64,000 nucleotides of DNA, taken from NCBI GenBank assembly GCA_025923075.1, contig JAICGN010000007.1, forward strand, positions 1-64,000. Direction: 5' to 3'. The position numbers and the translations under genes were made by a program. The notes beneath the pieces are model-generated. The model made no database searches, was not told the origin of the DNA, and saw nothing but the letters and a program-made list of their open reading frames with translations. Positions 9,782-28,228 of the stretch are shown piece after piece (within the stretch, counting starts at the first letter, position 1; the number at the start of each line of letters is the position of its first letter). This stretch comes from Chitinophagaceae bacterium. GTDB lineage: Bacteria > Bacteroidota > Bacteroidia > Chitinophagales > Chitinophagaceae.

Positions 9782-9935
9782 CAATTTTAAAATTTTCCCT
9801 CCTTCTAAACAAAATAATCTTTTGCAAACCCTGCCGGTTGGGCCGCTTTCCTCAAACTGCCGATAGCATAGAAACAAATCAATGGGGCCTGAACATTTTG
9901 TTATTCAATACATTTGCCTGAATAATTCTTCTCGT

Positions 9936-11963
9936 ATGATTCGAAAGTATCTTTTGGTCTCCATAGTATTTTTTTCAGGCTTCTGCTCTGCCCAGGATCC
10001 CTGGAGGATCACAGCGGAAAAAATTGATCCGAATAATTATTATGGTGTAACCGCCGCAAACGGAATGATTGGAATTGTTTCTTCACCAGAGCCATTTAAG
10101 GTGAAAGATGTTGTACTCGCCGGAGCTTATGATCTGTATGGCCGTGGCCGGGTGAGTAACTTTTTAAAAAGTTTCAACTTGCTGAACATGTACCTTGAAG
10201 TGGATGGAAAAAGAATTGATGGGAAAGCTGCTTCCAATATGCAGCAGGAATTAGATATGAAGAAAGCTTCTTTTACAACAACATTTGATTACGGTGATAA
10301 GGCTGCAGTTTCCTACACCTATTATTCACTTCGTCATTTGCCCTACACCGTATTGATGGATGTTGCTGTAACAGCAAAAAAAGACATTGGGATTACAGGT
10401 GCAAGTGTTATGGAATCACCGGATGCCTTGAAAGATGTCCAGAATTATTATAACGAAATTGACAGGCCGCATGTTGTTATCAGCTTACTGACCTCTTCTG
10501 CAAAAAGCCCGACAGGAAAATTATTAATGTGTGCAAGTAATACTTTTTTATTTGGTGAGGCACATGGCAGCGAACCAAGAGTGATCCATGAAATGTGGGA
10601 TAATAATATGCACCTGATGAAGTTTACCAAAAGACTTAAAGCTGGTGAAACTTATCGTTTCTCTATTGCTGGTTCATCTATTACATCCGCTCATCATGAT
10701 GATCCCTTAAATGAGGCAGAACGGGCAACGATCTTTGCAAAATTGGAGGGCCGGGACCGGCTTTTAAATTTCCATCATAAAGCATGGGAAGAACTATGGA
10801 AAAGCGATATTACGATTGAAGGCGACCCGCAAAGTCAGCAAGATATTCATAGCATGCTCTATCATCTTTATTCTTTTTCAAGAGAAGGTACGGCACTGTC
10901 TCCTTCGCCAATGGGATTAAGCGGGCTTGGTTATAATGGCCATGTTTTTTGGGATACAGAACTATGGATGTATCCTGCAATACTTGTTCTTCATCCCGAA
11001 ATTGCTAAAAGTCTTGTTGAATATCGCTACCAACGTCTCGACGCCGCAAAAAGAAATGCATTCAGTAAAGGATATAAAGGGGCAATGTATCCGTGGGAAA
11101 GTGCAGAAACCGGTGTTGAAGAAACACCGGTATGGGCCTTGAGTGGGCCATTCGAACATCACATCACCGCATGTGTGGGGATTGCCGCATGGAATTATTA
11201 TTGTGTAACCCAGGATAAACAATGGCTGCGGGATAAAGGGTATCCGATATTATCTGCCACCGCGGATTTTTGGGCAAGTCGTGTAGAAAGAAATGGTCCC
11301 GGTCATTATGATATCAAAAATGTAGTTGCTGCAGATGAATGGGCCGAAAATGTAGACAATAACGCATTTACTAATGCAGCCGCGAAATCTAATCTTCAGT
11401 TTGCAACAGAAGCAGCGAAAGTCTTAGGCATGACGGCCGATCAGGATTGGATGCATGTGGCAAGCAATATTCCTATCTTAAAGATGGATAACGGGGTAAC
11501 GAGAGAACATGCCACTTATAGTGGTGAAGGAATAAAACAGGCTGATGTTAATTTGTTGTCATATCCTTTGAAGCAAATTACTGACGTCGCTCAAATCAAA
11601 AAAGATCTCGAATACTATGAAACAAGAGTGCCCAATGAAGGCACTCCTGCCATGACACAAGCTGTATTTACAACATTATATGCACGGTTGGGTAATGCTG
11701 ACAAAGCCTATCGCTGGTTTAAAGAATCCTATATACCAAATCTCAATCCGCCATTCCGGGTAATTGCTGAAACCAAAGGAGGCACTAATCCATATTTCGC
11801 CACCGGCGCCGGTGGAATCATACAATCATTATTAATGGGTTTTGGCGGTCTGGATATTACTTCCACCGGGATTGTTCAATTAAAAACTTCATTGCCAAAA
11901 CAATGGAAAAGCCTGACACTAACAGGTGTTGGCCCGCAGAAAAAAACATTCAGTATTAAATAA
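9936..11963 (+). CDS. Periplasmic glycoside hydrolase family 65 protein
   Basis: 675 residues from the chosen ATG, which opens a signal peptide (IRKYLLVSIVFFSGFCSAQ); an earlier in-frame ATG at 9882 would bury it. The (alpha/alpha)6 region carries GH65 motifs: YKGAMYPWESAETGVE, and AADEWAENVDNNAFTN whose Glu468 corresponds to the general acid. GH65 includes phosphorylases of maltose, trehalose and kojibiose and also inverting hydrolases (acid trehalase, kojibiose hydrolase). Because this one is exported, where free phosphate-dependent use is less likely, a hydrolase of an alpha-linked disaccharide is the better guess. Its substrate is open. It is divergent from the LacI gene. Confidence 0.85.
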   Translation: MIRKYLLVSIVFFSGFCSAQDPWRITAEKIDPNNYYGVTAANGMIGIVSSPEPFKVKDVVLAGAYDLYGRGRVSNFLKSFNLLNMYLEVDGKRIDGKAASNMQQELDMKKASFTTTFDYGDKAAVSYTYYSLRHLPYTVLMDVAVTAKKDIGITGASVMESPDALKDVQNYYNEIDRPHVVISLLTSSAKSPTGKLLMCASNTFLFGEAHGSEPRVIHEMWDNNMHLMKFTKRLKAGETYRFSIAGSSITSAHHDDPLNEAERATIFAKLEGRDRLLNFHHKAWEELWKSDITIEGDPQSQQDIHSMLYHLYSFSREGTALSPSPMGLSGLGYNGHVFWDTELWMYPAILVLHPEIAKSLVEYRYQRLDAAKRNAFSKGYKGAMYPWESAETGVEETPVWALSGPFEHHITACVGIAAWNYYCVTQDKQWLRDKGYPILSATADFWASRVERNGPGHYDIKNVVAADEWAENVDNNAFTNAAAKSNLQFATEAAKVLGMTADQDWMHVASNIPILKMDNGVTREHATYSGEGIKQADVNLLSYPLKQITDVAQIKKDLEYYETRVPNEGTPAMTQAVFTTLYARLGNADKAYRWFKESYIPNLNPPFRVIAETKGGTNPYFATGAGGIIQSLLMGFGGLDITSTGIVQLKTSLPKQWKSLTLTGVGPQKKTFSIK

Positions 11964-11986
11964 CGAGGATTTGTATCTTTAACAAC

Positions 11987-12532
11987 TTGAAACGAATTGC
12001 TGCCATATTACTGCTTTCCTTGATGGTATTTAATCTCGCAGGTTATCGCTGGTTGTTTTCCGCAATTGAAAAAAAGGTCACTGCGAATCTCGAGCAAAGA
12101 ATTTCTTCCGGCAAATACAGCGATGAGCAATTAGTTGAGATCCGCATTCCCCTAAACATGCCGTATTATACGGATAAGGATTACGAAAATGTGTATGGCG
12201 AAACAGATTTTAACGGTGAACACTATCGATATGTAAAAAGAAAAGTTAGTGGCAATACGCTGTATTTGTTGTGTCTTCCCAATAAAGAAAAGACAAGCAT
12301 TGCTAATGCGAAGAATGAGTTTACAAAAGCCGTAAATGATATTCCCGGAAACAAACCAGGTTCCCAGCAAAAAAACAATTTTATAAAATTGCTTACTTCC
12401 GAATTCCAGGTAAATGAAATTCCTGTTCATGAAAATGGTTTTTTAATGGCCAGTTTATCCTATTTTACCAGAAATACAGAAGCTAAAGATTTATTTAACC
12501 CTCTTACTGAAGCACAGCCTCCCGAAGCTTGA
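11987..12532 (+). CDS. Small exported or membrane-anchored protein, unknown function
   Basis: 181 residues if translation starts at the TTG at 11987, which gives MKRIAAILLLSLMVFNLAGY, a good signal or anchor. A -7-like box TATCTTTA (11974-11981) lies so near that the mRNA would be almost leaderless. The rest is polar (YTDKDYENVYGETDFNGEHYRYVKRKV) with a HENGFL motif near the end. I do not recognise a family. It starts 23 bp after the GH65 stop and 60 bp before the first haloperoxidase gene, so it could belong to either group. The start is uncertain. Confidence 0.6.
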   Translation: MKRIAAILLLSLMVFNLAGYRWLFSAIEKKVTANLEQRISSGKYSDEQLVEIRIPLNMPYYTDKDYENVYGETDFNGEHYRYVKRKVSGNTLYLLCLPNKEKTSIANAKNEFTKAVNDIPGNKPGSQQKNNFIKLLTSEFQVNEIPVHENGFLMASLSYFTRNTEAKDLFNPLTEAQPPEA

Positions 12533-12592
12533 GGACTTTCTGAATCGAAGCCAACGCGGAAAATATTTTATCCCTAATTTCTCAAATAGAAC

Positions 12593-13921
12593 ATGAAAGC
12601 ATTAAAAATTTTAATGCCCTTATTATTGCTGGCAGCAGTAAGTTGTACAGAAAAGGGGGCACAAACCGATCTGAAGTTTTTTGACGACCAGATTCTTTAT
12701 TGCAAAACGGTGAAGAAGCTTAATGACGTAGTGTTGGAAAATAATTTTCCTCCCATGATCGCCACCCGTAATTATGTGTATGCAAGCATCGCAGCTTTTG
12801 AATGTGTAGCAGCCGGTGATGACAATTATATTTCACTGGCAGGACAGATAAAACATATGCCTGCCATGCCAAAACCGGTAACGAAGGATATTGATTTTTC
12901 CTTAGCTGCATTACTGGCTTTTACAAAAGTTGGAAATGCTGTTACTTTTCCCGAAGGAAGCATGATGGGTTATTATAACGATCTGACAAAACAAGCCGAA
13001 AAGGCTGGCATATCAGCTCTTGTTGTAAAAAACACCATTGCCTTTTCAGATAGTGTAGTTGCTGCAATTATGCGCTGGAGTAAGAAAGATAATTATGCGC
13101 AAACAAGGACAGCAGAAAGATACACTGTTTTGTATAATGTGCCAGGTCGGTGGATACCAACACCGCCAATGTATGGTACAGCAGTAGAACCACATTGGAG
13201 AGAAATAAGAACAATGGTGATCGATTCAGCTTCACAGTTCAGACCAGTTGCTCCGCCGGCATGTGATCCGAAAGACAAAAACGGGGATTTCTGCAAAGCA
13301 ATGATAGAAGTAAAAACAATTGGTGAAAATCTTACTGAAGAGCAAAAGCATATTGCCGATTTCTGGGATGACAATCCTTTTAAGATGAATGTAACGGGAC
13401 ACGTGATGTTTGTTACCAAAAAATTTTCTCCTCCTGGTCACTGGATGAATATCGTTGGCATTGGCGCAAAAGCTGCAAAAGCTGATTTCAAGACAACGGT
13501 GGCTGCCTATGCTCAAACAGCCATTGCTTTATATGATGCATTTATAAGCTGCTGGGATGAAAAATTCAGGAGCAATTATGTTCGCCCTGAAACAGAAATA
13601 AATAAAATTGATGAGAACTGGCGTCCCTATATACAGACACCGCCTTTCCCATCTTATACAAGCGGTCATGCTACAAACAGTGCAGCCGCCGCTGAAGTAA
13701 TGACGCATTGGTTTGGTGATAATTTATCATTTACTGATACTTCATTGCTTGAGTTTGGAATCAAAAACCGCGAAATAAAATCTTTCCGTGGAGCTGCAGA
13801 GGAAGCTGCTATGTCAAGACTATATGGTGGTATACATTATCGTTTTGATAATGAAAATGGAACGATAGCCGGAAAAAAACTGGGAGAGTTTATTGTATCC
13901 CGGCTGAAACTTAAAAAATAA
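12593..13921 (+). CDS. Vanadium-dependent haloperoxidase / PAP2-type lipoprotein (first)
   Basis: 442 residues, lipobox AAVSC (Cys18). The three vanadate/phosphate-binding motifs of the family are present: K324-x6-RP (KFRSNYVRP), P353-SYTSGH, and S408-R-x5-H415 (SRLYGGIH). PPGHWMNIV (~290) is also typical of the bacterial haloperoxidase branch. The family holds vanadium haloperoxidases, which oxidise halides with hydrogen peroxide, and acid phosphatases of the same fold; sequence alone does not separate them. It starts a run of four genes that ends with a second such enzyme. Confidence 0.85.
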   Translation: MKALKILMPLLLLAAVSCTEKGAQTDLKFFDDQILYCKTVKKLNDVVLENNFPPMIATRNYVYASIAAFECVAAGDDNYISLAGQIKHMPAMPKPVTKDIDFSLAALLAFTKVGNAVTFPEGSMMGYYNDLTKQAEKAGISALVVKNTIAFSDSVVAAIMRWSKKDNYAQTRTAERYTVLYNVPGRWIPTPPMYGTAVEPHWREIRTMVIDSASQFRPVAPPACDPKDKNGDFCKAMIEVKTIGENLTEEQKHIADFWDDNPFKMNVTGHVMFVTKKFSPPGHWMNIVGIGAKAAKADFKTTVAAYAQTAIALYDAFISCWDEKFRSNYVRPETEINKIDENWRPYIQTPPFPSYTSGHATNSAAAAEVMTHWFGDNLSFTDTSLLEFGIKNREIKSFRGAAEEAAMSRLYGGIHYRFDNENGTIAGKKLGEFIVSRLKLKK

Positions 13922-13951
13922 TTTAATTCAAACGAAAACTGCTTAAACATT

Positions 13952-15019
13952 ATGAACCGCATTTATTTAATTATCGCAATTTTAGTTGTATCCACATACC
14001 AGCAAACAAACGCACAAGGCTGTGTTGCTATTAAAGGTACTGCTGGTATTTGTGGCCGTCCTTCTGATGCAAGAGGTTGGGAATTGAATCTCAACAACCG
14101 CTATTTCAAATCGTACAAGCATTTTGTAGGTACCGAAGAACAACACCATAGAGAGGAAGAAGGTAGTAATGTGATCAATCATTCTTACGAACTGGATATA
14201 ACGGCTATCAGAACTATTAATTCAAGGTGGTCAATTGCAATGACTGTACCCATTATGTACTTTGCCCGTTCTTCTTTGTATGAACATGATGGTAGAACAA
14301 GACACAGTACACACTCCTTTGGTATAGGAGATGCAAGAGTTTCCGGGTATCGCTGGATGTTTGATCCCAAAACCTCACACAAAGGAAATGTTCAGCTTGG
14401 GTTAGGAATAAAATTGCCAACCGGTAATTATACCTATATGGATTATTTCTATAAAAAGGCAGACTCCAGTGTTCTGGGGCCTGTTGATCAATCCATTCAG
14501 CCCGGTGATGGCGGCACAGGGATCACTTTTGAATTAAACAGCTTCTATAATTTCAGTCATAAACTTGGCGTATATGGCGGCTTCTTTTATCTGATCAACC
14601 CGAGAGAAGTTAACGGTACATCTACAGCAAGAGGCGGTACCCCAAATGCAACAGCAAAAAAATACAATACAGATGTAATGAGCGTACCTGATCTTTTTAT
14701 GGTCCGCGGTGGTCTGAGTTATATGGTTAAAAATTTAAATGTTGCCGGTGGTATTCGTGTTGAAGGGCTTCCTTCAAGTGATCTGATCGGTGGTGATCGT
14801 GGTTTCAGAAGACCAGGTTATATTGTTTCTGCTGAACCTTCAATAACATACGTAGCAAAAAAAGCCAGTTTCAATGTTGCAGTTCCGTTTGCGTTGAAAA
14901 GAAACCGTACACAAAGTGATTCGGACAAGCGTCGCTCTGCCGATTTAGGAAGACACGTGCAGGGTGATGCAGCATTTGCTGATTACCTGGTCAGTGCTGG
15001 TATAACTATTCGCCTTTAA
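13952..15019 (+). CDS. Outer-membrane beta-barrel protein (porin-like)
   Basis: 355 residues. Signal peptide ending about TNAQ, then alternating hydrophobic beta strands with Gly/Asn/Asp turns (IRTINSRWSIAMTVPIMYF, LGLGIKLPTGNYTYMD, LYHFSHKLG-type strands) and a C-terminal strand ending ...ITIRL. The pattern resembles the transporter or MetA-like barrel proteins that sit beside catabolic genes in many Gram-negatives. It is 30 bp after the first haloperoxidase and 33 to 90 bp before another barrel gene, so it likely forms part of the same operon. Substrate unknown. Confidence 0.7.
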   Translation: MNRIYLIIAILVVSTYQQTNAQGCVAIKGTAGICGRPSDARGWELNLNNRYFKSYKHFVGTEEQHHREEEGSNVINHSYELDITAIRTINSRWSIAMTVPIMYFARSSLYEHDGRTRHSTHSFGIGDARVSGYRWMFDPKTSHKGNVQLGLGIKLPTGNYTYMDYFYKKADSSVLGPVDQSIQPGDGGTGITFELNSFYNFSHKLGVYGGFFYLINPREVNGTSTARGGTPNATAKKYNTDVMSVPDLFMVRGGLSYMVKNLNVAGGIRVEGLPSSDLIGGDRGFRRPGYIVSAEPSITYVAKKASFNVAVPFALKRNRTQSDSDKRRSADLGRHVQGDAAFADYLVSAGITIRL

Positions 15020-15108
15020 GCGGGACCATTAACTATTATCGGAGAAGAGAGATGAAATATTTTTCACTCTCTTCTCCCTCTTCTGTTAAAATCATTTTAA
15101 TACTTTAT

Positions 15109-16047
15109 ATGAAAAAAATATTTTTAATAGTATTATTTACTACTTCTCTTTCTTGCGCATGCTTGTCGCAAACAGATATTGATGCGATTATGATGGAGAA
15201 AAATGCCTTTTGTGTGGGACCTATGTTCGGATACAGTAGCTGGAAAAATTATTGGGAAGGAACACTGAAAAGAGAAAATCTGAACCTTGGAACCGTTTCT
15301 ACCAAAGTGTTTAGTGTTATGGGCAACTATGGAATCAATAACAAATTGAATGTATTGTTTGGTTTGCCTTATGTAGTAACAAAAGCTTCTGCAGGTCAAC
15401 TGAACGGACAAGAAGGGGTGCAGGATCTTTCTCTCTGGATAAAATGGAAGGCCTATAGTAAGAAAGTCACCTCTGGTCGTTTATCATTGTTTGCAATTGG
15501 CGGTTACGGGTTTCCCGCATCAGACTACACAGGAGATTTTCTACCTATGTCGATCGGGTTGGAAAGTAAAAATCTTTCATTGCGTGGAATGGCCGATTAT
15601 CAAAGAGGCCCATGGTTTGGAACAGTATCCGGTACGTATGTAATAAGAAGTAATATCGAGTTAGATCGTGATGCCTATTATACAACTGAAATGCATTATA
15701 GTAATGAAGTTGATATGCCCGATGCGGCATCATTTAATATAAGAGCCGGCTATCGTGATAAAGGATTAATTGCAGAAGCGGTATTTGACCACTGGAATAC
15801 ACTTGGTGGGTTTGATATTACCAGAAACAACATGCCTTTCCCCAGTAATGAAATGGATATGTCAAGGATCGGTTTCAATTTCAAATATGATATGCCTTTT
15901 CATCCGCCGCTTTCTCTAACAGGAAATGTGATGACAACAATTGCGGGAAGAAATGTTGGACAGGCAACCGGATTCAATGCCGGGATATTTTATGTAATTG
16001 ATTTTACTAAGAAGAAGAAAACCGATTCTGATGATTCAAAAAAATAA
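15109..16047 (+). CDS. Outer-membrane beta-barrel protein
   Basis: 312 residues from the ATG at 15109, chosen because it begins a clean signal peptide (KKIFLIVLFTTSLSCACLSQ); an upstream ATG at 15052 would add 19 residues. The mature protein has repeated amphipathic strands (NKLNVLFGLPYVVTKA, RLSLFAIGGYGFPASDYTG, LSLTGNVMTTIAGRNVG) and a basic end KKKKTDSDDSKK. A cysteine in the signal (SCAC) could make it a lipoprotein, but the SQ cut is more likely. It pairs with the barrel gene before it and overlaps the upstream region of the second haloperoxidase by a few bases. Confidence 0.65.
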   Translation: MKKIFLIVLFTTSLSCACLSQTDIDAIMMEKNAFCVGPMFGYSSWKNYWEGTLKRENLNLGTVSTKVFSVMGNYGINNKLNVLFGLPYVVTKASAGQLNGQEGVQDLSLWIKWKAYSKKVTSGRLSLFAIGGYGFPASDYTGDFLPMSIGLESKNLSLRGMADYQRGPWFGTVSGTYVIRSNIELDRDAYYTTEMHYSNEVDMPDAASFNIRAGYRDKGLIAEAVFDHWNTLGGFDITRNNMPFPSNEMDMSRIGFNFKYDMPFHPPLSLTGNVMTTIAGRNVGQATGFNAGIFYVIDFTKKKKTDSDDSKK

Positions 16048-16051
16048 ACAA

Positions 16052-17593
16052 ATGAAAAAGCTATTTATACCAATAATATTTTTTGCTGTTTTAATAAATT
16101 CCTGTTCAAAAGATATCGTTGAAAATAATCTTGAATTTCCTGCATTACAACCGGCATCAACAGACATTAATGCAGGGATATGGAAACCGATATTATTAAC
16201 AGGTCCAACTGAATTTCCGGTTGCGGTTCCTATTGCCGTTACCACTCCGGATTACATTGCCCAAATAAATGAGATCAAAACATGGCAGGCTGACCTTAGC
16301 AAAGATGAAAAAGCGATTGTAAAATACTGGAGTGCCGGCGCTGTGTTACGTTGGAATGAAATTATGAGAGAGCTGGTCGCTAAACATAATTTACCTCCTT
16401 ATCAAAATCCGGATGGAACTTATCCGGCACCAAACGCAAACAATCCATTAGCATATCCACAATTCCCTTTTGCCAATCCTCCCTATGCATCCAGAGCTTA
16501 TGCTTATTTAGCAGCCGCGCAATATGATGCATTGGTAGCGGCATGGCATTATAAGAAATTATACAACCGCGCCGCACCTTACGTTACAGATCCAACAGTA
16601 AATGCGTTGATACCAAAATCAGATCTTCCATCTTATCCTTCAGAAGATGCGGTTGTTGCAGGCGTTGCCAGCGAAATGATGAAACTTTTATTTCCAGGCG
16701 ATCAGGATTTTATTCAACAAAAAATTGAAGAACATAAAAAAGCAAGATTGATCTCCGGGGCTAATGTTCGCAGTGATCTGGACGCAGGCGAAGCATTAGG
16801 AAAAGCAGTTGCACAAAAATTTGTAACAAGAGCAAGAGGTGACAGAGCCGGCACTGCAGGCGGAAGCCTTGCTATCCAGTCCCAAATGGAACAAGATTGT
16901 ATCGCAAGAGGTGAAACACCATGGATCAGCCAGGAAGTTCCAAAAAGACCAGGCATGCTCATGCTATTCGGAAGAGTAAGAACATGGCTGTTCGATTCAT
17001 TAACAATGGTAACAACAATTCGTCCACCAGCTCCTCCTTCGACTTCGTCACAAAAATTCAAAGAAGAGTTGGATGAGGTGCATAGTTACAGCACAAGTAT
17101 TACACCAGAGACAAGGGCTATTGCTCATTATTGGGCAGATGGGATCAGCACTCAAACACCTCCTGGCCACTGGAACCAGATAGCTGCTGAAGATTTTGTA
17201 GCACAAAATTTCAGTGAAGTAAGATGGGCGAGGAATATGGCATTATTAAATATGGCGATGATGGATGCGGCGATTGTGTGCTGGGATGCTAAATATTTTT
17301 ATTTCAATCCACGGCCGTCACAAATGGATAACAGAGTAAAAACGGTTACGGGTTTACCAAACTTTCCATCTTACCCGTCCGGCCACTCAACATTTAGTGG
17401 TGCAGCCGCGACAATACTGGCACATATTATTCCTTCAAAGGCAACTAAATATACTGATATGGCCACAGAGGCATCTCTCTCACGAATGTATGCATCGATT
17501 CATTATCGCAGCGATTGTGAAAAAGGGTTAGAATCCGGAAATAAGATCGGTGAACATGCAAAAACAAGAGCAAGAACTGATGGAGCAGAATAA
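16052..17593 (+). CDS. Vanadium-dependent haloperoxidase / PAP2-type lipoprotein (second)
   Basis: 514 residues from the ATG at 16052, which begins the signal KKLFIPIIFFAVLINSC (lipobox INSC); it starts 5 bp after the barrel gene's stop. The family motifs are K414-x6-RP (KYFYFNPRP), P439-SYPSGH and S477-R-x5-H484 (SRMYASIH), with TPPGHWNQI upstream. It is only distantly like the first copy in the cluster: longer, with an added N-terminal half (NPPYASRAYAYLAAAQYDAL). Both being lipoproteins means the reactions take place in the periplasm or at the outer membrane, next to the two barrels. Confidence 0.85.
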   Translation: MKKLFIPIIFFAVLINSCSKDIVENNLEFPALQPASTDINAGIWKPILLTGPTEFPVAVPIAVTTPDYIAQINEIKTWQADLSKDEKAIVKYWSAGAVLRWNEIMRELVAKHNLPPYQNPDGTYPAPNANNPLAYPQFPFANPPYASRAYAYLAAAQYDALVAAWHYKKLYNRAAPYVTDPTVNALIPKSDLPSYPSEDAVVAGVASEMMKLLFPGDQDFIQQKIEEHKKARLISGANVRSDLDAGEALGKAVAQKFVTRARGDRAGTAGGSLAIQSQMEQDCIARGETPWISQEVPKRPGMLMLFGRVRTWLFDSLTMVTTIRPPAPPSTSSQKFKEELDEVHSYSTSITPETRAIAHYWADGISTQTPPGHWNQIAAEDFVAQNFSEVRWARNMALLNMAMMDAAIVCWDAKYFYFNPRPSQMDNRVKTVTGLPNFPSYPSGHSTFSGAAATILAHIIPSKATKYTDMATEASLSRMYASIHYRSDCEKGLESGNKIGEHAKTRARTDGAE

Positions 17594-17636
17594 TCTTAGT
17601 ACGTTTTTTAATAGGACATAATATAAGCATATAAAA

Positions 17637-17658
17637 CCCCTCCGTTTCTACGGAGGGG
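17637..17658. terminator. Strong hairpin after the haloperoxidase cluster
   Basis: Perfect 8-bp stem CCCCTCCG / CGGAGGGG with a 6-nt loop. The plus-strand tail is only AATATTT, while the minus-strand side has TTTTAT, so termination on the plus strand is plausible but not certain. Confidence 0.55.
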
Positions 17659-17845
17659 AATATTTAATCCTTATGTAACTGATAAAAATTATTTTATATA
17701 CACGATACAAATCGCTGAATCAACGGATAGATCATTAAAGTTTTTTGAATTTTTTTAAATTGGAATAAGCATTACGGCGTTGTAATTCATTACCGACGCC
17801 TCTTCTTTTTAAATTAAAATAATAATTAAAACATCTCAATAAGAA

Positions 17846-18415
17846 ATGCCTTATATACCGTTAGAAGAACACCTGCCCGGTGTTACAGGATTATTGGAAT
17901 ATAGAAAAGATACCGCTGCTCCAATTCGGGAATTAACTCAAATCTTGCTGCGTGGACCTTCCACTCTAACTGAAGGCGAAAGAGAATTGATTGCAACAAT
18001 TGTGTCGCATCGTAATCAATGCACGTTCTGTGTAACTGCGCACACAGCGGTGGCAAATATTTTCCTGGAAGAAGAAAAAACATCAACCAGGATAAAGGAA
18101 GATATAGGTACTGCACCTGTAAGCGATAAAATGAAAGCATTATTAACTATCGCGTCACAGGTACAGGAAAGCGGTAAAAATGTAACGACAGAATCAATTC
18201 AAAAAGCGAAGGATGCTGGCGCCACAGATATGGAAATTCATGATACAGTTTTAATAGCGGCCTTGTTTTGTTTATACAATCGTTATGTAGATGGTCTTTC
18301 CACGGTTACTCCCACAGATCCCGAATTTTATAAAGGGCTTGGCCAACGATTAAAAGACCATGGCTACCATCGTTTACCGCAGGGATATGATCATTTAAAG
18401 AAGAGTAATCAATGA
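17846..18415 (+). CDS. AhpD-like peroxidase-related / carboxymuconolactone decarboxylase family protein
   Basis: 189 residues, cytoplasmic (no signal). The core motif C59-TFC62-VTAH66 is the redox CxxCxxxH of AhpD-type proteins, which accept electrons and reduce peroxides or act on related substrates. Helical segments around it (ELIATIVSHRNQ, KMKALLTIASQVQESG) fit the all-alpha AhpD fold. It follows the haloperoxidase cluster after a 250-bp gap with a hairpin, so it is probably transcribed separately, although a link to peroxide use is attractive. Confidence 0.85.
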   Translation: MPYIPLEEHLPGVTGLLEYRKDTAAPIRELTQILLRGPSTLTEGERELIATIVSHRNQCTFCVTAHTAVANIFLEEEKTSTRIKEDIGTAPVSDKMKALLTIASQVQESGKNVTTESIQKAKDAGATDMEIHDTVLIAALFCLYNRYVDGLSTVTPTDPEFYKGLGQRLKDHGYHRLPQGYDHLKKSNQ

Positions 18416-18482
18416 AAAGAGGGGTATAACGATTCGAACGAACTATTTAGAGTCGGATCTATGTAAATGAAAACATAAATAA

Positions 18483-19619
18483 ATGAAAAAAATATTTTGG
18501 TTTGGTTTGATTGGCTTACTACTATTCGAAATAGCCAATGTTTATTTCATCATGCCAATGCCCGGCAGTCAGCAAATGAATAGTATCGATCTTGCTTACA
18601 TCCTGTATAAATGGCGTTGGATATTCAGAGGCCTATTTGCTGCGATGATCTTCGTCGGCCTGTTCAAATCGCAATGGAAAAGAAAATGGCTATTGTTTTT
18701 TCCAATTGCTATTGCTGCTGCCGTTGTGTACATGACAAATTTTGTGATGGCTGCGGATCACATGTTTTATCAACCAAAACAAGTTTTGATGGTAAGTACC
18801 AAAGAAAATAAAATTGATTCAAACAGGTTAGTGATCGGTGTGACAAATAATGGCGAAGCAAAGGCATACCCAATACAATTTTTAGGTTACCATCACCAGG
18901 TGCATGACACGGTTGGAGGTAAACCCATGATCATTACTTATTGCACCGTATGCAGAACAGGCAGAGTTTACGAACCACTTGTAAATGGCAGGCCAGAAAA
19001 GTTTCGGCTAGTTGGAATGGATCATTTCAATGCGATGTTTGAAGATGCTACAACAAAAAGCTGGTGGCGGCAGGTTAGCGGCGAAGCCGTAACAGGTAAA
19101 TTAAAAGGACACCAATTACCCGAAGTATTCAGCACACAGACTTCCTTATCAGATTGGTTGCAATTGAATCCAAACTCACTTATCATGCAAGCGGATCCAA
19201 ATTTTATAAAATCTTATGACAGCACGTTTAAATTCGAAAGCGGTGCCAGCAAGAGTAAATTAACGGGGACCGATAGTCTTTCATGGAACGATAAATCGTG
19301 GGTGATAGGCGTAAAAGCTGGAAAAGAAACAAAAGCCTATGACTGGAACCGGCTGAAAAAAGAAAAAATAATACAGGATAAAATTGGTACGACTCCTGTT
19401 TTGATCGTGTTGTCAAAAAATGATAAAAGTTTTTTTGCATTTCAAAGACCAGATGAGAATTCAATTTTCAACTTGAAGGGCGACACGCTGTTAATTGAAA
19501 ACCATAAATACAGAATTGATGGCAAAGGAATTGATACAATATTTTCATTGAAACCATTACCGGCCTCCCAGGAATTCTGGCATAGCTGGCGAACTTTTAA
19601 TCCAGGCACACTGCATTAG
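18483..19619 (+). CDS. DUF3179 domain-containing membrane protein
   Basis: 378 residues. Three N-terminal hydrophobic segments (about 5-23, 48-63 and 72-92) precede a large soluble domain with DUF3179 landmarks: AYPIQFLGYHHQVHDTVGG, ITYCTVCRTGRVYEP, FRLVGMDHFNAMFED and WWRQVSGEAVTG-KGHQL. The domain is widespread and its biochemical role is not settled. It probably faces the periplasm. It follows the AhpD-like gene by 67 bp. Confidence 0.85.
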   Translation: MKKIFWFGLIGLLLFEIANVYFIMPMPGSQQMNSIDLAYILYKWRWIFRGLFAAMIFVGLFKSQWKRKWLLFFPIAIAAAVVYMTNFVMAADHMFYQPKQVLMVSTKENKIDSNRLVIGVTNNGEAKAYPIQFLGYHHQVHDTVGGKPMIITYCTVCRTGRVYEPLVNGRPEKFRLVGMDHFNAMFEDATTKSWWRQVSGEAVTGKLKGHQLPEVFSTQTSLSDWLQLNPNSLIMQADPNFIKSYDSTFKFESGASKSKLTGTDSLSWNDKSWVIGVKAGKETKAYDWNRLKKEKIIQDKIGTTPVLIVLSKNDKSFFAFQRPDENSIFNLKGDTLLIENHKYRIDGKGIDTIFSLKPLPASQEFWHSWRTFNPGTLH

Positions 19620-19661
19620 TCTTTGCTACGGTCGTTTTTCTATTGTCCGGTATGGTTCATG

Positions 19662-19669
19662 TATCTTTA
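19662..19669 (+). promoter_or_regulatory. -7 box (TATCTTTA) of the trehalase gene
   Basis: Close to the Bacteroidota consensus TAnnTTTG, with TTG at 19643-19645. The spacer of 16 is shorter than the usual 19-22, so this is a moderate call. Confidence 0.4.
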
Positions 19670-19686
19670 AAGTGAATTTTACCATC

Positions 19687-21273
19687 ATGAAAAAGACTAC
19701 ACTTATCCTCACTACCATTTTTTCTTTTGTATCACTCGTTGCACAAACAAAGGTGCAAACGCCCGACCAGGTCTATGGCGAATTGTTTAAAGATGTACAG
19801 ATGTCACGCATTTTTCCCGATGGAAAAACTTTTGTGGATTGTGTACCTAAAAGAGATCCGAAGGACATTGTAAAAGATTATCTGGCTATTAAAAAACATC
19901 CGGCAATAAAATTCTCACTGGAGCTTTTTGTAAAAGAAAATTTTGATATGCCGCCAGCTCCTCCTGCCGTCAATTATGTCCAGCAGGAGAAAGATGTGAT
20001 AATGCATATCAAAAACCTTTGGGGGGCCTTAAGACGGGAGCCTGACAAAAAGATCGAGGGAAGTTCATTGTTGCCTTTGCCGCATCCTTATATAGTACCC
20101 GGCGGGCGCTTCAGAGAAATTTATTATTGGGATTCCTATTTCACTATGCTTGGATTAAAAGAAAGCGGCGAAATGGAGATGATTGAAAACATGATCAAAA
20201 ACTTTGCTTATCTCATAGAAACGTATGGACATATTCCCAATGGCAACAGGAGTTATTATATCGGTCGTTCACAGCCGCCGTTTTTTGCTGCAATGGTGCA
20301 ATTGCTTGCTACCATTAAAGGAGATAATGTGTATGTTAACTTTCTTCCTGCGTTAGAAAAGGAATACAGGTTTTGGATGGACGGTGCTTCTAAATTAAAA
20401 GTTGGGCAAGCTTTTCGCCGTGTGGTGAAATTAAAAGATGGAAGCATTTTAAATCGCTATTGGGATGATAGCAATGTACCGAGACAGGAAAGCTGGCGTG
20501 AAGATTTTGAAACTGCTAAAAAATCGGGGCGGAATACAATCGAAATGTATAAACACCTTCGTGCCGGCGCAGAAAGTGGAATTGATTTCAGCAATCGTTG
20601 GTTTGCTGATGGGAAAAATATCACTTCAATTCAAACGACAAATTATATTGCCGTTGATTTGAATGCTCTTTTGACAAACCTGGAGTATGCAATTTCAAAA
20701 GGATACCAGGCTGGAGGAAAAGATAGTGTCGCAAATGACTACAGAAAAAAAGCAGAGAGAAGAAGGGTTGCTATAGATAAATATTGCTGGAACTCTAAAC
20801 TAAATTACTATTGTGATTTTAATTTCAAAACACAACGGATATTAGGCGAAGTTACTCCTGCAGGTATGTATCCATTTTGTTTTTTTGAAAGCAAACCTGA
20901 TTATTTGAGTTTGCAAGCCAAGAAGGCATCTGAAGAAATTAAAGCAAAATTGTTACAACCGGGTGGCGTAACGACAACAGCAAAGAATACAAATCAACAA
21001 TGGGATTCGCCAAATGGATGGGCACCTTTACAATGGATGACCATTTGGGGGCTTGATCGTTGCGGTCAAAAAGAATTGGCAAAAGAGATTGCAATGCGCT
21101 GGATGAAATTGAATATGGACGTTTACGCTCGAACTGGCAAACTCATGGAAAAATATAATGTAGTTGACACCCATCTTGAAGCCGGTGGGGGAGAATATCC
21201 GGGGCAGGATGGTTTTGGTTGGACAAACGGAGTGTTGATGGCATTGATTGCGAAATATGGGAAGCCAGAATAA
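19687..21273 (+). CDS. treA: Periplasmic trehalase, glycoside hydrolase family 37
   Basis: 528 residues from the ATG at 19687, which opens a clean signal peptide (MKKTTLILTTIFSFVSLVAQ). Both GH37 signatures are present: PGGRFREIYYWDSYF at ~138 and QWDSPNGWAPLQ at ~438. The family hydrolyses trehalose to two glucose molecules. PNGNRSYYIGRSQPP and the Gly-rich end EAGGGEYPGQDGFGWTNG are also typical. Secretion puts it in the periplasm, so the glucose can be taken up by the MFS porter encoded nearby on the other strand. Confidence 0.95.
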   Translation: MKKTTLILTTIFSFVSLVAQTKVQTPDQVYGELFKDVQMSRIFPDGKTFVDCVPKRDPKDIVKDYLAIKKHPAIKFSLELFVKENFDMPPAPPAVNYVQQEKDVIMHIKNLWGALRREPDKKIEGSSLLPLPHPYIVPGGRFREIYYWDSYFTMLGLKESGEMEMIENMIKNFAYLIETYGHIPNGNRSYYIGRSQPPFFAAMVQLLATIKGDNVYVNFLPALEKEYRFWMDGASKLKVGQAFRRVVKLKDGSILNRYWDDSNVPRQESWREDFETAKKSGRNTIEMYKHLRAGAESGIDFSNRWFADGKNITSIQTTNYIAVDLNALLTNLEYAISKGYQAGGKDSVANDYRKKAERRRVAIDKYCWNSKLNYYCDFNFKTQRILGEVTPAGMYPFCFFESKPDYLSLQAKKASEEIKAKLLQPGGVTTTAKNTNQQWDSPNGWAPLQWMTIWGLDRCGQKELAKEIAMRWMKLNMDVYARTGKLMEKYNVVDTHLEAGGGEYPGQDGFGWTNGVLMALIAKYGKPE

Positions 21274-24745: not shown

Positions 24746-27700
24746 TCAATGAAGCCTTATAACTTTTAAACTATCATTATTTCTTGCAACAAGAAGTGCT
24801 TCCTTTCTGTCAATAGTGATCTTTCTGATATGCCTTACCTCTCCTTTTATCATATAACCATTTAATGATTCGCAACTAAACTTGCCTTCTCCTTTATTCA
24901 TCAGTACAGTTCCGTAATCGCCATCATATTCACCCATTTGGATACTGTTATGATAAAAGTTGCCGGCTAACAAGATATCCGGTCTGCTATCATTATTCAG
25001 ATCTGCTATTGTAGCGTCACGATATGGAGTAAGTTGTGCCTCCCATGGTAATTCCTTCAGGCTAAAATTCCAATTACCATTGTTGATCAACATAATATTA
25101 GAAAAATAATTTGCAGAAAGCAGACTGGCCGAATTCAGTTTTTCTGTTTTGAAAATATCATTCAATGTCGCTTTCGCAAAATCCTCTGCATATAAATATT
25201 TTTTCTTTAGCTCAGGTATTTGCCTTACTAATTCGTCTTTTGTGGCAAACGGGATTTCCTTCCCACCCAGATAATAAGTAAGTACTTGCTCTTTTTTACC
25301 ATTATCGTCATAATCGTTGTAATATAAACGAACAGGATGTTGGCCAGATGCTTGTAGCCTGTTGTTCAATCCCAGGTTGCCGCCAATAAGATCAAGGTCC
25401 CCATCACCGTCAACATCTACTGGCAATGTAAAATTCCACCAGCCCTTTTTATCGGTTAAATATTTCTTTTCAAGCCTGTTTTTCTGATTTATAAAGGCAG
25501 CTATTCCATCCCATTCTAATGAAAGCACCAGGTCACTATCACCATCTTTATCGAGATCACTCCAAAATGAATGTTTTACAAATCCTGCCATTGATAATTC
25601 TTTACTGTATTGATCGGTTACATCATTAAACTTTCCTTTGCCGTCATTTTTTAATAAATAAGATCGTGGTATTGTGCCATATTCATTTGGCACTGCCCGA
25701 CCCGCAATAAACAGATCGACATAACCATCACCCGAAAAATCATATGCCGCAACGCAAGATGCAGTTAACATTATACGCTTATCAAAAGCATCAGTCAACT
25801 TCTGAAGATTTTCTTTACCATCATTTAAATAAACTCTTGGCAATAAAAATTCACTGTTGCCATAATATTCATTTCCCCCGCTTGCGATAACAAGATCATT
25901 AAAAGAGTCATTATTTACATCCACAAAAACTGCATCAACATCTTCATACGTACTATCCGAATCCAAGGCAGGTTGATCTGATCTTAAAAATTTACCACTG
26001 CTTTGCTGGATAAACAGACCTGGTTTTTTGAATTTACTTGATCCAACAAATACATCTTCCAGGCCATCGTTATTGATATCTCCAACAGCCAATGCAGGCC
26101 CCTCTCTTGAAGTCATAAAAGGAATTAATGGCTCGCGGTCAAACTCATTAAAAGAATTTTCTTCATGCAGGTATGATAAGCCTGTCTGGCTTGTGATATC
26201 TTCTGCAGGTACCAAAGCGTTAGAGATATTTTGTTGAAATACTTTATAATCAAACTTGGCCAGTCCACTTTTATATGCCACAGTTACGATTGAATCCTTA
26301 ACCGGCGCTAATTTTTCATAAGTATTATCCGGCCAGACAATAAGAATTGAATCAACATTTGTTTTATGAAGTCCTATATGCAACGGCACCTCCATGCTTC
26401 CCTGGAAACCCCGCACGGGGAATTTTTCATAAGTACGCATTTCTCCGAAAGGAGTCCTTTGGACATTTTTTGTAAATACAATTGCTTTTGTTCCAATACC
26501 ATTTATATTAAGTGGGGGCCCTTGCAATTTAAATTCAAGGAAAGATCTTTTTTCAGTGCCATCATTCGAAAGATTTTTATAGATCAATGCCGGCTCATCC
26601 ACATTGTTCACTACCATATCCATATCGCCATCATTATCAAAATCAGCATAAGCAGCGCCGTTCGAGTATGTTCTGGGGTTATTCCTTATCATGGAGTCTG
26701 CATCAACAAATTTTGCTTCGCCTTTATTCAAATAGAATTTATTGGTCAGCTTTATCTGCGGAAATTTTTGTATCAGCGCCATATCATTTTCATCAACACG
26801 ATTTGTCCTTATTTTTTCCTGCAGTTCAACGTTGCTCACAAAGTTTATATAATCCATGTCATTCAGCCGTTTGGGAATACCATTACTGATAAACAGATCC
26901 TTCCAGCCATCATTATCAAAATCCGTCCACAACGCTGCCCAACTCCAGTCTGTTGCATACACGCCACTGTAAAAACCAATTTCAGTGAACAAGCCATTTC
27001 TCCTGTTTAGCTGTAGCGTGTTCCTTGCAAACTGAGGATGATAACCATGCCTGATCTTAAAATGGAAAAGGTTATACTCGTTTTCGCCCAATGATCTTTT
27101 TAAAATGTAGGGATCCTCAGGCATCATATCAATTGAAATAATTTCAGGAAATCCATCATTTGTAATATCGGCTACATCAGTACCCATGCTGAACTGGCTT
27201 GTGTGCATTATGGTGCCTTCCAACGTATCCAGGAAAGTCCCATTCTTCTGATTAATGTAGAGATAATCGTTTTCATGAAAATCATTGCCGATATACAGGT
27301 CAGGATAACCATCGAGATTTATATCGGCAACAGAAAGCCCCAAACCATATCCGATTATTGACCTGTTAATTCCGGCTGTCGCAGATACATCAACAAATTT
27401 AACCTCCCCCTTACGCCCTCCAGCGGGGGATTCATTTCTGAAAAGATAATCTGCCGCGAGTGTATCAAATGTATTCAGGTAAGATGACCGTTCATTAAAG
27501 GTTCCGTCAAAGCGAAGTGAATGATTCATTAAGAAAAAATCCAGATCTCCATCAAGGTCATAATCGAAAAAAGCCGCCTGGGTACCAAAACCGCTGAAGT
27601 CAAGACCCAACTTCCCGGCTTCATCTTCATAATAAGGCACCCCATTCGCGTCTTTTCCTTGACAAATCAAAAATTGATTCTTGCTTTTCAATGTTTCATA

Positions 27701-28228
27701 ATTACCAACACGACATACATAAATATCAAGCAGCCCATCATTATTTATGTCAACAACAGAAACTCCAGTGCTCCATCCGCCATCCTGCGGTATCCTTGCC
27801 TCCTTTGTCACATCTTTGAATTTCAATCCGCTTTCATTCAAGTAGATTTTATTCTCTCCCTGGTTCGATGAAAAGAAAATATCACTTAGTCCATCATTAT
27901 TAAAATCTCCGACACCAACTCCTGCACCATTGTAGAAATACATGTACTTAAACATATTGAATTGCGCTGTGGGAGTAAGCTTGTTTACGAAATCAATTCC
28001 TGTTGCTTTGCTATCCAGGGCTTCAAATATGGCCGGCGGCTCATTCTTCTTATCATTGCATGATAAAAGAGTAATGAACGGCATAATGTTCATAACAATA
28101 AGGACTATGTACCAAACATGGGCCCTACTATTAAGCTTATGTTGCGACGCCCCTTTCAAAGTTTTTTTCAACTTTGAGCAATTGCGCCGCAGTTTACGCT
28201 GAGCTTGTCGAAGTGTCGCACTGTTCAT
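24746..28228 (-). CDS. FG-GAP/VCBS and ASPIC-UnbV repeat lipoprotein (CRTAC1 type), second of two
   Basis: Up to 1160 residues. Many D-x-D-x-D-G calcium-type repeats of the FG-GAP/VCBS fold (GVGVGDFNNDGLSDIFFSSN, AFFDYDLDGDLDFFLMN) form beta-propellers, with an ASPIC/UnbV module around RGFQGSMEVPLHIGL-HKTNVDSILIVWPD. Lipobox LLSC lies at ~56, preceded by YIVLIVMNIMPFIT. The first 45 residues are encoded by a dispersed repeat (28121-28245), so the real start may instead be the ATG at 28093. A GC-rich palindrome inserts SPAGGRKGEV in frame (27402-27432). Such proteins often stand beside SusCD pairs; function unknown. Confidence 0.8.
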   Translation of the reverse strand: MNSATLRQAQRKLRRNCSKLKKTLKGASQHKLNSRAHVWYIVLIVMNIMPFITLLSCNDKKNEPPAIFEALDSKATGIDFVNKLTPTAQFNMFKYMYFYNGAGVGVGDFNNDGLSDIFFSSNQGENKIYLNESGLKFKDVTKEARIPQDGGWSTGVSVVDINNDGLLDIYVCRVGNYETLKSKNQFLICQGKDANGVPYYEDEAGKLGLDFSGFGTQAAFFDYDLDGDLDFFLMNHSLRFDGTFNERSSYLNTFDTLAADYLFRNESPAGGRKGEVKFVDVSATAGINRSIIGYGLGLSVADINLDGYPDLYIGNDFHENDYLYINQKNGTFLDTLEGTIMHTSQFSMGTDVADITNDGFPEIISIDMMPEDPYILKRSLGENEYNLFHFKIRHGYHPQFARNTLQLNRRNGLFTEIGFYSGVYATDWSWAALWTDFDNDGWKDLFISNGIPKRLNDMDYINFVSNVELQEKIRTNRVDENDMALIQKFPQIKLTNKFYLNKGEAKFVDADSMIRNNPRTYSNGAAYADFDNDGDMDMVVNNVDEPALIYKNLSNDGTEKRSFLEFKLQGPPLNINGIGTKAIVFTKNVQRTPFGEMRTYEKFPVRGFQGSMEVPLHIGLHKTNVDSILIVWPDNTYEKLAPVKDSIVTVAYKSGLAKFDYKVFQQNISNALVPAEDITSQTGLSYLHEENSFNEFDREPLIPFMTSREGPALAVGDINNDGLEDVFVGSSKFKKPGLFIQQSSGKFLRSDQPALDSDSTYEDVDAVFVDVNNDSFNDLVIASGGNEYYGNSEFLLPRVYLNDGKENLQKLTDAFDKRIMLTASCVAAYDFSGDGYVDLFIAGRAVPNEYGTIPRSYLLKNDGKGKFNDVTDQYSKELSMAGFVKHSFWSDLDKDGDSDLVLSLEWDGIAAFINQKNRLEKKYLTDKKGWWNFTLPVDVDGDGDLDLIGGNLGLNNRLQASGQHPVRLYYNDYDDNGKKEQVLTYYLGGKEIPFATKDELVRQIPELKKKYLYAEDFAKATLNDIFKTEKLNSASLLSANYFSNIMLINNGNWNFSLKELPWEAQLTPYRDATIADLNNDSRPDILLAGNFYHNSIQMGEYDGDYGTVLMNKGEGKFSCESLNGYMIKGEVRHIRKITIDRKEALLVARNNDSLKVIRLH
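27402..27432 (-). repeat. GC-rich palindromic element inside an FG-GAP gene
   Basis: CCTCCCCC...GGGGG with partial inverted symmetry, read in frame as ESPAGGRKGEV on the minus strand. The matching place in the paralogue next door has only DGGYFND-type residues. Related to the elements in paaB and paaC. Confidence 0.55.

Follow-up and report, generated by a model that had tools for sequence, protein, structure and literature searches.

The DNA analysed here, referred to as the window, is a stretch of 64,000 nucleotides (positions 1 to 64,000 of contig JAICGN010000007.1, assembly GCA_025923075.1) from a Chitinophagaceae bacterium of the phylum Bacteroidota. It carries a row of four genes, in which two vanadium haloperoxidase (VHPO)-type lipoproteins, V1 and V2, enclose two outer-membrane barrels, B1 and B2. 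V1 (12593-13921, 442 amino acids, aa) is followed by B1 (13952-15019, 355 aa, with a signal peptide), B2 (15109-16047, 312 aa, ATG at 15109) and V2 (16052-17593, 513 aa, ATG at 16052), the PAP2/VHPO domain of the latter being C-terminal. All four genes lie on the plus strand and are separated by 30, 89 and 4 bp, in agreement with the gaps of 30, about 90 and 5 bp given in the original prediction for this locus. The locus is read here, with a probability of roughly one half, as an envelope haloperoxidase module in which V2 would work with its own anion-friendly channel, B2.

The linkage of the four genes was followed in 244 Chitinophagaceae genomes searched with each of V1, B1, B2 and V2, with listed matches within 3.5 kb of each other taken as one cluster. 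Weak matches were dropped (B1 below 50 bits, B2 below 40 bits, V2 below 300 bits), including a 273-bit piece of a split V2 in genome G059. All counts, those based on V1 included, hold among the matches listed. The order V1-B1-B2-V2, which the original prediction had proposed to look for in Bacteroidota, was found in 40 clusters, the one in the window included. V1-B1 formed 22 clusters, V1-B2-V2 20, B2-V2 10 and B1-B2-V2 7, with 10 clusters of further arrangements. Lone matches were seen for V1 (58), B1 (16), B2 (1) and V2 (1). B2 was paired with V2 in 86 of its 88 matches, and B1 adjoined V1 in 70 of 94. The idea of two dedicated barrels is therefore upheld for B2, which is tied to V2, and not for B1, whose tie is loose.

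A set of 80 named loci was taken from GTDB genomes, mostly of Chitinophagaceae (Ferruginibacter, Niastella, Flavisolibacter, Chitinophaga) and also of Sphingobacterium and Daejeonella. After exclusion of three loci with too little upstream DNA, B2 stood immediately 5' of V2 in all of the remaining 77. When 296 genomes drawn from the whole phylum were searched with the V2 profile at 1e-30, 27 gave matches, 23 of them from other families. Scores of at least 404 bits were reached in 20 of these 23, six of the 20 lying outside the class, and B2 was directly upstream of V2 in every one (20/20). Matches of 112-135 bits in G339, G448 and G522 were too weak to be taken as V2; in the two that were inspected, the V1 profile scored better and B2 was absent. 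The other neighbours of distant B2-V2 pairs differ, for example ribosomal-protein genes at L249, as read from the sequence. At L248, two tandem B2-V2 pairs follow a TonB receptor and B1, so that the pair duplicates as a unit.

In a second draw of 208 genomes searched with B1 and B2, B2 matches of at least 119 bits were found in 18 genomes, all of which also carry V2, and 7 further genomes hold weak B2 relatives below 84 bits without a recognised V2. B1 was found in 16 of the 208 genomes, with no VHPO, B2 or V2 in view at most of its distant loci. At L355 and L357, distant B2 relatives (94-107 bits) precede a gene whose product (about 328 aa) looks like a lipoprotein but is no VHPO; these may be a further kind of barrel-lipoprotein pair. 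A layout peculiar to this strain is ruled out by the recurrence in family clusters and distant genomes, and the contexts are not scattered. Eight stretches of the source genome with its other VHPO genes (L259-L266, some cut by contig ends) hold no B1 or B2. In one of them (L261, G000:C36) three haloperoxidase-like genes stand in tandem, in a genome with 22 PAP2-fold matches in all, phosphatases among them.

Sequence distances of B2 and V2 correlate with r = 0.914 over 98 loci and 0.628 in a 43-locus common set, against 0.27 for V1 and V2 over 58 loci and 0.372 in the common set; as the shared ancestry of the genomes inflates all these values, only the contrast between them is informative. The core of the module is B2-V2. 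Its strict pairing across Bacteroidota indicates that enzyme and channel probably work together.

Both enzymes retain the motifs of the vanadate site and both have lipoboxes, as the original prediction had stated and as the translations bear out. In V2 these are K414-x6-R421-P, P439-SYP-SGH445 and S477-R-x5-H484, with the lipobox cysteine in AVLINSC; the PAP2 Pfam score is 57.5 bits (cut-off 27.2). The residues W411, K414, R421, P422, F438, S443, G444, H445, S477, R478, H484 and D488 are each present in 101 of 101 V2 loci. In V1 the corresponding motifs are K324-x6-R331-P, P353-SYT-SGH359 and S408-R-x5-H415, the lipobox cysteine lies in LLLAAVSC and the PAP2 score is 32.8 bits (same cut-off). 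Profile comparison aligns V1 with V2 over 204 columns with a probability of 99.9.

V1 matches the solved structure 4cit over residues 5-440 (phmmer 388.6 bits, E = 3.4e-115), and its profile does so with 489 bits (9e-146). We take 4cit, like 4usz, to be the vanadium iodoperoxidase ZgVIPO1 of Zobellia galactanivorans. The two proteins are alike over their full length and share CWDEK..RSN..RPE, PPFP.YTSGH and SR.YGGIHYR around the vanadate site. Unlike ZgVIPO1, V1 shares its row of genes with two barrels and another VHPO, and three types of active site occur among the relatives in the V1 slot. The active-site columns of V1 are unvaried in 28 of 28 close relatives. Among 58 sequences of the wider V1 slot, the position of Ser357 is occupied by S in 34, C in 23 and A in one. 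The window type is TSGH/SRxYGGIHYR-D; the second is TCGH/ARFYGGIHFH, with Cys at the Ser position (23/58), and the third, TSGH/SRFYGGIHYR-S, is of the Niastella kind. The TCGH variant (L132, L135, L136, L143, L144 and others) is an unusual one: it replaces the vanadate-contacting Ser by Cys, along with SR by AR and HYR by HFH, and occupies the same operon position as V1. The constancy of the V2 active site, set against the three types in the V1 slot, points to V2 as the constrained partner, while V1 looks swappable. By sequence, V1 can be described as an iodoperoxidase-like lipoprotein which, together with B1, makes an add-on pair common in Chitinophagaceae.

The structures of the barrels were predicted with AlphaFold from 30 (B2) and 27 (B1) sequences, as the original prediction had advised, and both models fold like COG4313/FapF channels. 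The B2 model has 12 strands and a predicted local distance difference test (pLDDT) score of 74.6; that of B1 is 84.8. For both predicted models the best solved match is the COG4313 channel 4rl8, with a VIA Z of 24.8, a root-mean-square deviation (rmsd) of 2.4 and 251 aligned residues for B2, and with Z 22.7, rmsd 2.6 and 253 aligned residues for B1. The models thus have the 12-strand fold of the COG4313/Phenol_MetA_deg channels. The window barrels differ from those channels by their basic conserved lumen, their tie to a haloperoxidase gene and the missing Pfam match: a Pfam search gave no PF13557 match for B1 or B2 of the window, and the family was matched at E<=0.01 by 5 of 30 B2 and 2 of 27 B1 relatives (best 1.8e-8). 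As close paralogues, B1 and B2 were rejected (profile comparison probability 1.5), paralogy not being demonstrable by sequence. Among residues conserved in at least 90% of sequences and assigned to the lumen by strand parity, B2 has seven positive and two negative and B1 six positive and three negative. The modelled lumen of B2 is best read as basic, that of an anion-friendly channel.

Next to 4rl8 rank the matches to FapF, the amyloid exporter of Pseudomonas (5o65), which has the same barrel fold (Z 22.7 for B2, 20.9 for B1), and autotransporter barrels also appear among the best matches of B2 (Z about 20-22). As B2 and V2 also co-vary and are tied one to one, this gives some room to an explanation in which B2 would place or plug V2 at the surface, in the manner of a FapF- or autotransporter-type translocator, and would have no small substrate. 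Membership of FapF itself is rejected by the NCBIfam FapF model, which gives B1 16.6 bits against a cut-off of 700 and does not match B2. Moreover, the COG4313 channel is the top match of B2, and lipoproteins of Bacteroidota are known to get to the cell surface with no barrel of their own. A role of B2 in assembly or export is regarded as quite improbable.

Two parts of the locus had been passed over by the original prediction, a small gene in front of V1 and a hairpin behind V2. The first, ORF181 (11987-12532, plus strand, TTG start), is a conserved leader gene whose product has an N-terminal membrane anchor or signal. Of 52 testable named loci, 51 have ORF181 within 800 bp 5' of V1, and homologues scoring at least 23 bits precede the module in 13 of the 20 loci outside the family, before V1 at L244, before B1 at L247 and otherwise before B2. 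ORF181-V1-(B1) in front is thus a frequent Chitinophagaceae extension of the B2-V2 core. A known family or structure for ORF181 was rejected, as a single Pfam model was matched, and weakly, by only 2 of its 34 members, and PDB gave no match. The C-terminal PP is invariant in small proteins of this type, and a mechanical rule gives an apparent TTG start in 38 of 60. ORF181 homologues also lead B1 (L310, L311), TonB receptors (L307, L309, L315) and V1-like enzymes (L313, L314); by sequence reading, the latter two lie among large proteins and SusD/SusC-like genes. At L308, ORF181 occurs with an AhpD-like gene, a TonB receptor and a major facilitator superfamily (MFS) transporter, whose closest match, at a score below the cut-off, is the aromatic acid symporter type. 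AhpD-like genes stand directly behind or beside the ORF181 homologue at L247, L308 and L312, according to a sequence reading that was confirmed for L308.

The hairpin (17637-17658, plus strand) is G+C-rich, has a 9-pair stem (CCCCTCCGT/ACGGAGGGG) and lies between V2 and the AhpD-like gene. From its sequence it is possibly the end of the transcription unit; terminator-like sites overall are about as frequent as in shuffled sequence, which makes the evidence from the hairpin weak. The Bacteroidota-type promoter pattern was rejected: it occurs 5 times in the window, where 4.57 would be expected, and never close to the locus.

Downstream of the hairpin, on the plus strand, follow a gene for an AhpD-like peroxidase-related protein (CMD; 17846-18415; TIGR01926, 89.6 bits, cut-off 81.8) and one for a DUF3179 membrane protein (18483-19619; PF11376, 172.8 bits). 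The original prediction had named both genes correctly. They are loose associates and were rejected as regular members of the module, the first being close to V2 in only 5 of 42 loci and the second in 12 of 42. Upstream of ORF181 lies a kojibiose hydrolase gene of GH65 (9882-11963, plus strand; NF053734, 1224.6 bits, cut-off 800), preceded by a LacI regulator and a SusC/D/E locus, and a trehalase gene follows DUF3179. Among loci that have V1 and sufficient flanking DNA, kojibiose hydrolase precedes V1 in 22 of 31; where V1 is missing, it is present upstream in 1 of 11. Trehalase lies downstream in 30 of 42. The two genes bracket the module (window 9882-21273), an arrangement repeated in many Chitinophagaceae and seen in one genome of another family (L244). 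A TonB receptor of FecA/siderophore type stands immediately 3' of V2 in 22 of 80 loci. Farther 3' in the window lies a gene for an FG-GAP/ASPIC protein (24746-28228).

These surroundings bear on whether the module might serve defence or stress. In that case the haloperoxidases would dispose of H2O2 and act against competitors, by producing hypohalous acid or by quenching the competitors' signals; the barrels would only pass small ions. An AhpD-like peroxidase-related gene is indeed nearby in some loci, and one report describes the Zobellia vanadium iodoperoxidase as upregulated on a brown alga alongside oxidative and halogen stress responses (PMC9296495). A diffusible oxidant, however, needs no strict one-to-one tie between V2 and a barrel, and kojibiose hydrolase, trehalase and the TonB receptor, as neighbours of a nutrient type, point to acquisition. 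A defence role is thus considered unlikely, though less so than an assembly role of B2.

Several observations weigh against an envelope haloperoxidase module built on V2 and an anion channel. V2 aligns to 4cit solely over its C-terminal domain (profile positions 309-510, 4.3e-26), its VCPO_2nd match (26.5 bits) stays below the cut-off of 27, and acid phosphatases come next after 4cit in its list of structure matches (8.8e-13). The class A acid phosphatase signature is K-x6-RP ... PSGH ... SR-x5-H-x3-D, and V2 of the window fits it literally. No clear acidic export signal was seen after the lipobox cysteine, so that the surface location proposed in the original prediction was not substantiated. 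Beside the core no H2O2-producing enzyme was identified, though no systematic search for one was made, and the recurrent neighbours kojibiose hydrolase, trehalase and TonB receptor point to no single substrate. Finally, COG4313 channels have been proposed to take up hydrophobic molecules, whereas a basic lumen is more readily understood in an anion channel; substrate and purpose thus pull apart. These channels are linked to the uptake of hydrophobic and aromatic molecules, with poor ion conduction in the one solved case (PMC4493636); the link to such uptake counts in favour of the module, as do the TonB receptor behind V2 and the gene set at L308.

A rival explanation is phosphate-ester scavenging, with V1 and V2 as acid phosphatases of the PAP2 fold, which is common to these enzymes and haloperoxidases, and B2 as a porin whose basic lumen would admit phosphate or phospho-esters. 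The class A non-specific acid phosphatases 2ipb and 7f17, which follow 4cit in the list, share the fold and the catalytic residues with V2; they are much shorter. Against this explanation, V1 resembles a haloperoxidase of solved structure over its full length. Trp three residues before the catalytic Lys (K-3) and Phe seven before the His (H-7) are kept in 101 of 101 V2 and 58 of 58 V1 sequences, whereas 7f17 has Met and Gly there in an ungapped alignment reading. These two residues presumably correspond to W350 and F397 of VCPO, and the second sphere of V2 appears haloperoxidase-like by sequence. The Pro of PSGH is replaced by I, V, M or T in 22 of the 23 V2 sequences parsed (24 aligned), and V1 has TSGH. 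In the loci listed, the genes flanking the core include none recognised as concerned with phosphate, no systematic search for them having been made. Phosphate scavenging is accordingly held to be improbable, to about the same degree as defence. The expectation of a system using peroxide and halide or phosphate esters is supported as to V1, which resembles a haloperoxidase throughout, and for V2 either halide or phosphate esters may be the substrate.

The working of the haloperoxidase module with its B2 channel can be outlined as follows, where vanadate and halide use, the channel substrate, the contact of enzyme and channel, the side of the membrane and the purpose are what we infer. V2, whose vanadate-type active site is complete, would sit in the outer membrane as a lipoprotein, its putative channel B2 being encoded directly before it. 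There V2, and V1 where present, would bind vanadate and convert halide, with H2O2, into hypohalous acid. B2, with its basic lumen, may pass anions beside the enzyme, that is, halide or vanadate reaching V2; alternatively, B2 may take up small acidic or halogenated products. The conserved small product of ORF181, encoded at the front, would also belong to the envelope, and B1 would provide another channel with the predicted fold of B2. The likeliest use might be to attack extracellular organic matter, phenolic or otherwise, by oxidation and to take up the products. It is thought likeliest because of the nutrient-type neighbours, and this purpose is the weakest step of the outline.

A bolder version, held tentatively and as somewhat less probable than the module itself, is a phylum-wide envelope machine in which VHPO chemistry would be physically coupled to a dedicated channel in a V2-B2 complex. 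The iodoperoxidase-channel pair, the leader protein and often a TonB receptor would be its extensions, and the oxidant would be made, and anions or oxidised products would cross, at one site. Like the SusC/SusD pairs, the locus combines an outer-membrane transporter with a dedicated lipoprotein in one gene row. It differs from them in that B1 and B2 are small 12-strand barrels without a TonB plug and that V1 and V2 are enzymes; membership in the SusC/SusD group was rejected, as both barrels are small (355 and 312 aa) and have no Plug or TonB match. The enzymes and the barrel fold are of already known kinds. A description of the module was not found in the accessible parts of the open-licence literature, including PMC9296495 and PMC13102585, subscription journals lying outside the search.

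Many haloperoxidase-type genes of Bacteroidota have little-explained roles, and the strict enzyme-channel pairing offers a first handle on them, since it predicts a complex and names the partner. It also frames the question of whether soil and freshwater bacteria use outer-membrane halogen chemistry on organic matter, iodine or competitors. If this is true, halogen cycling on land would be linked to a common bacterial group.

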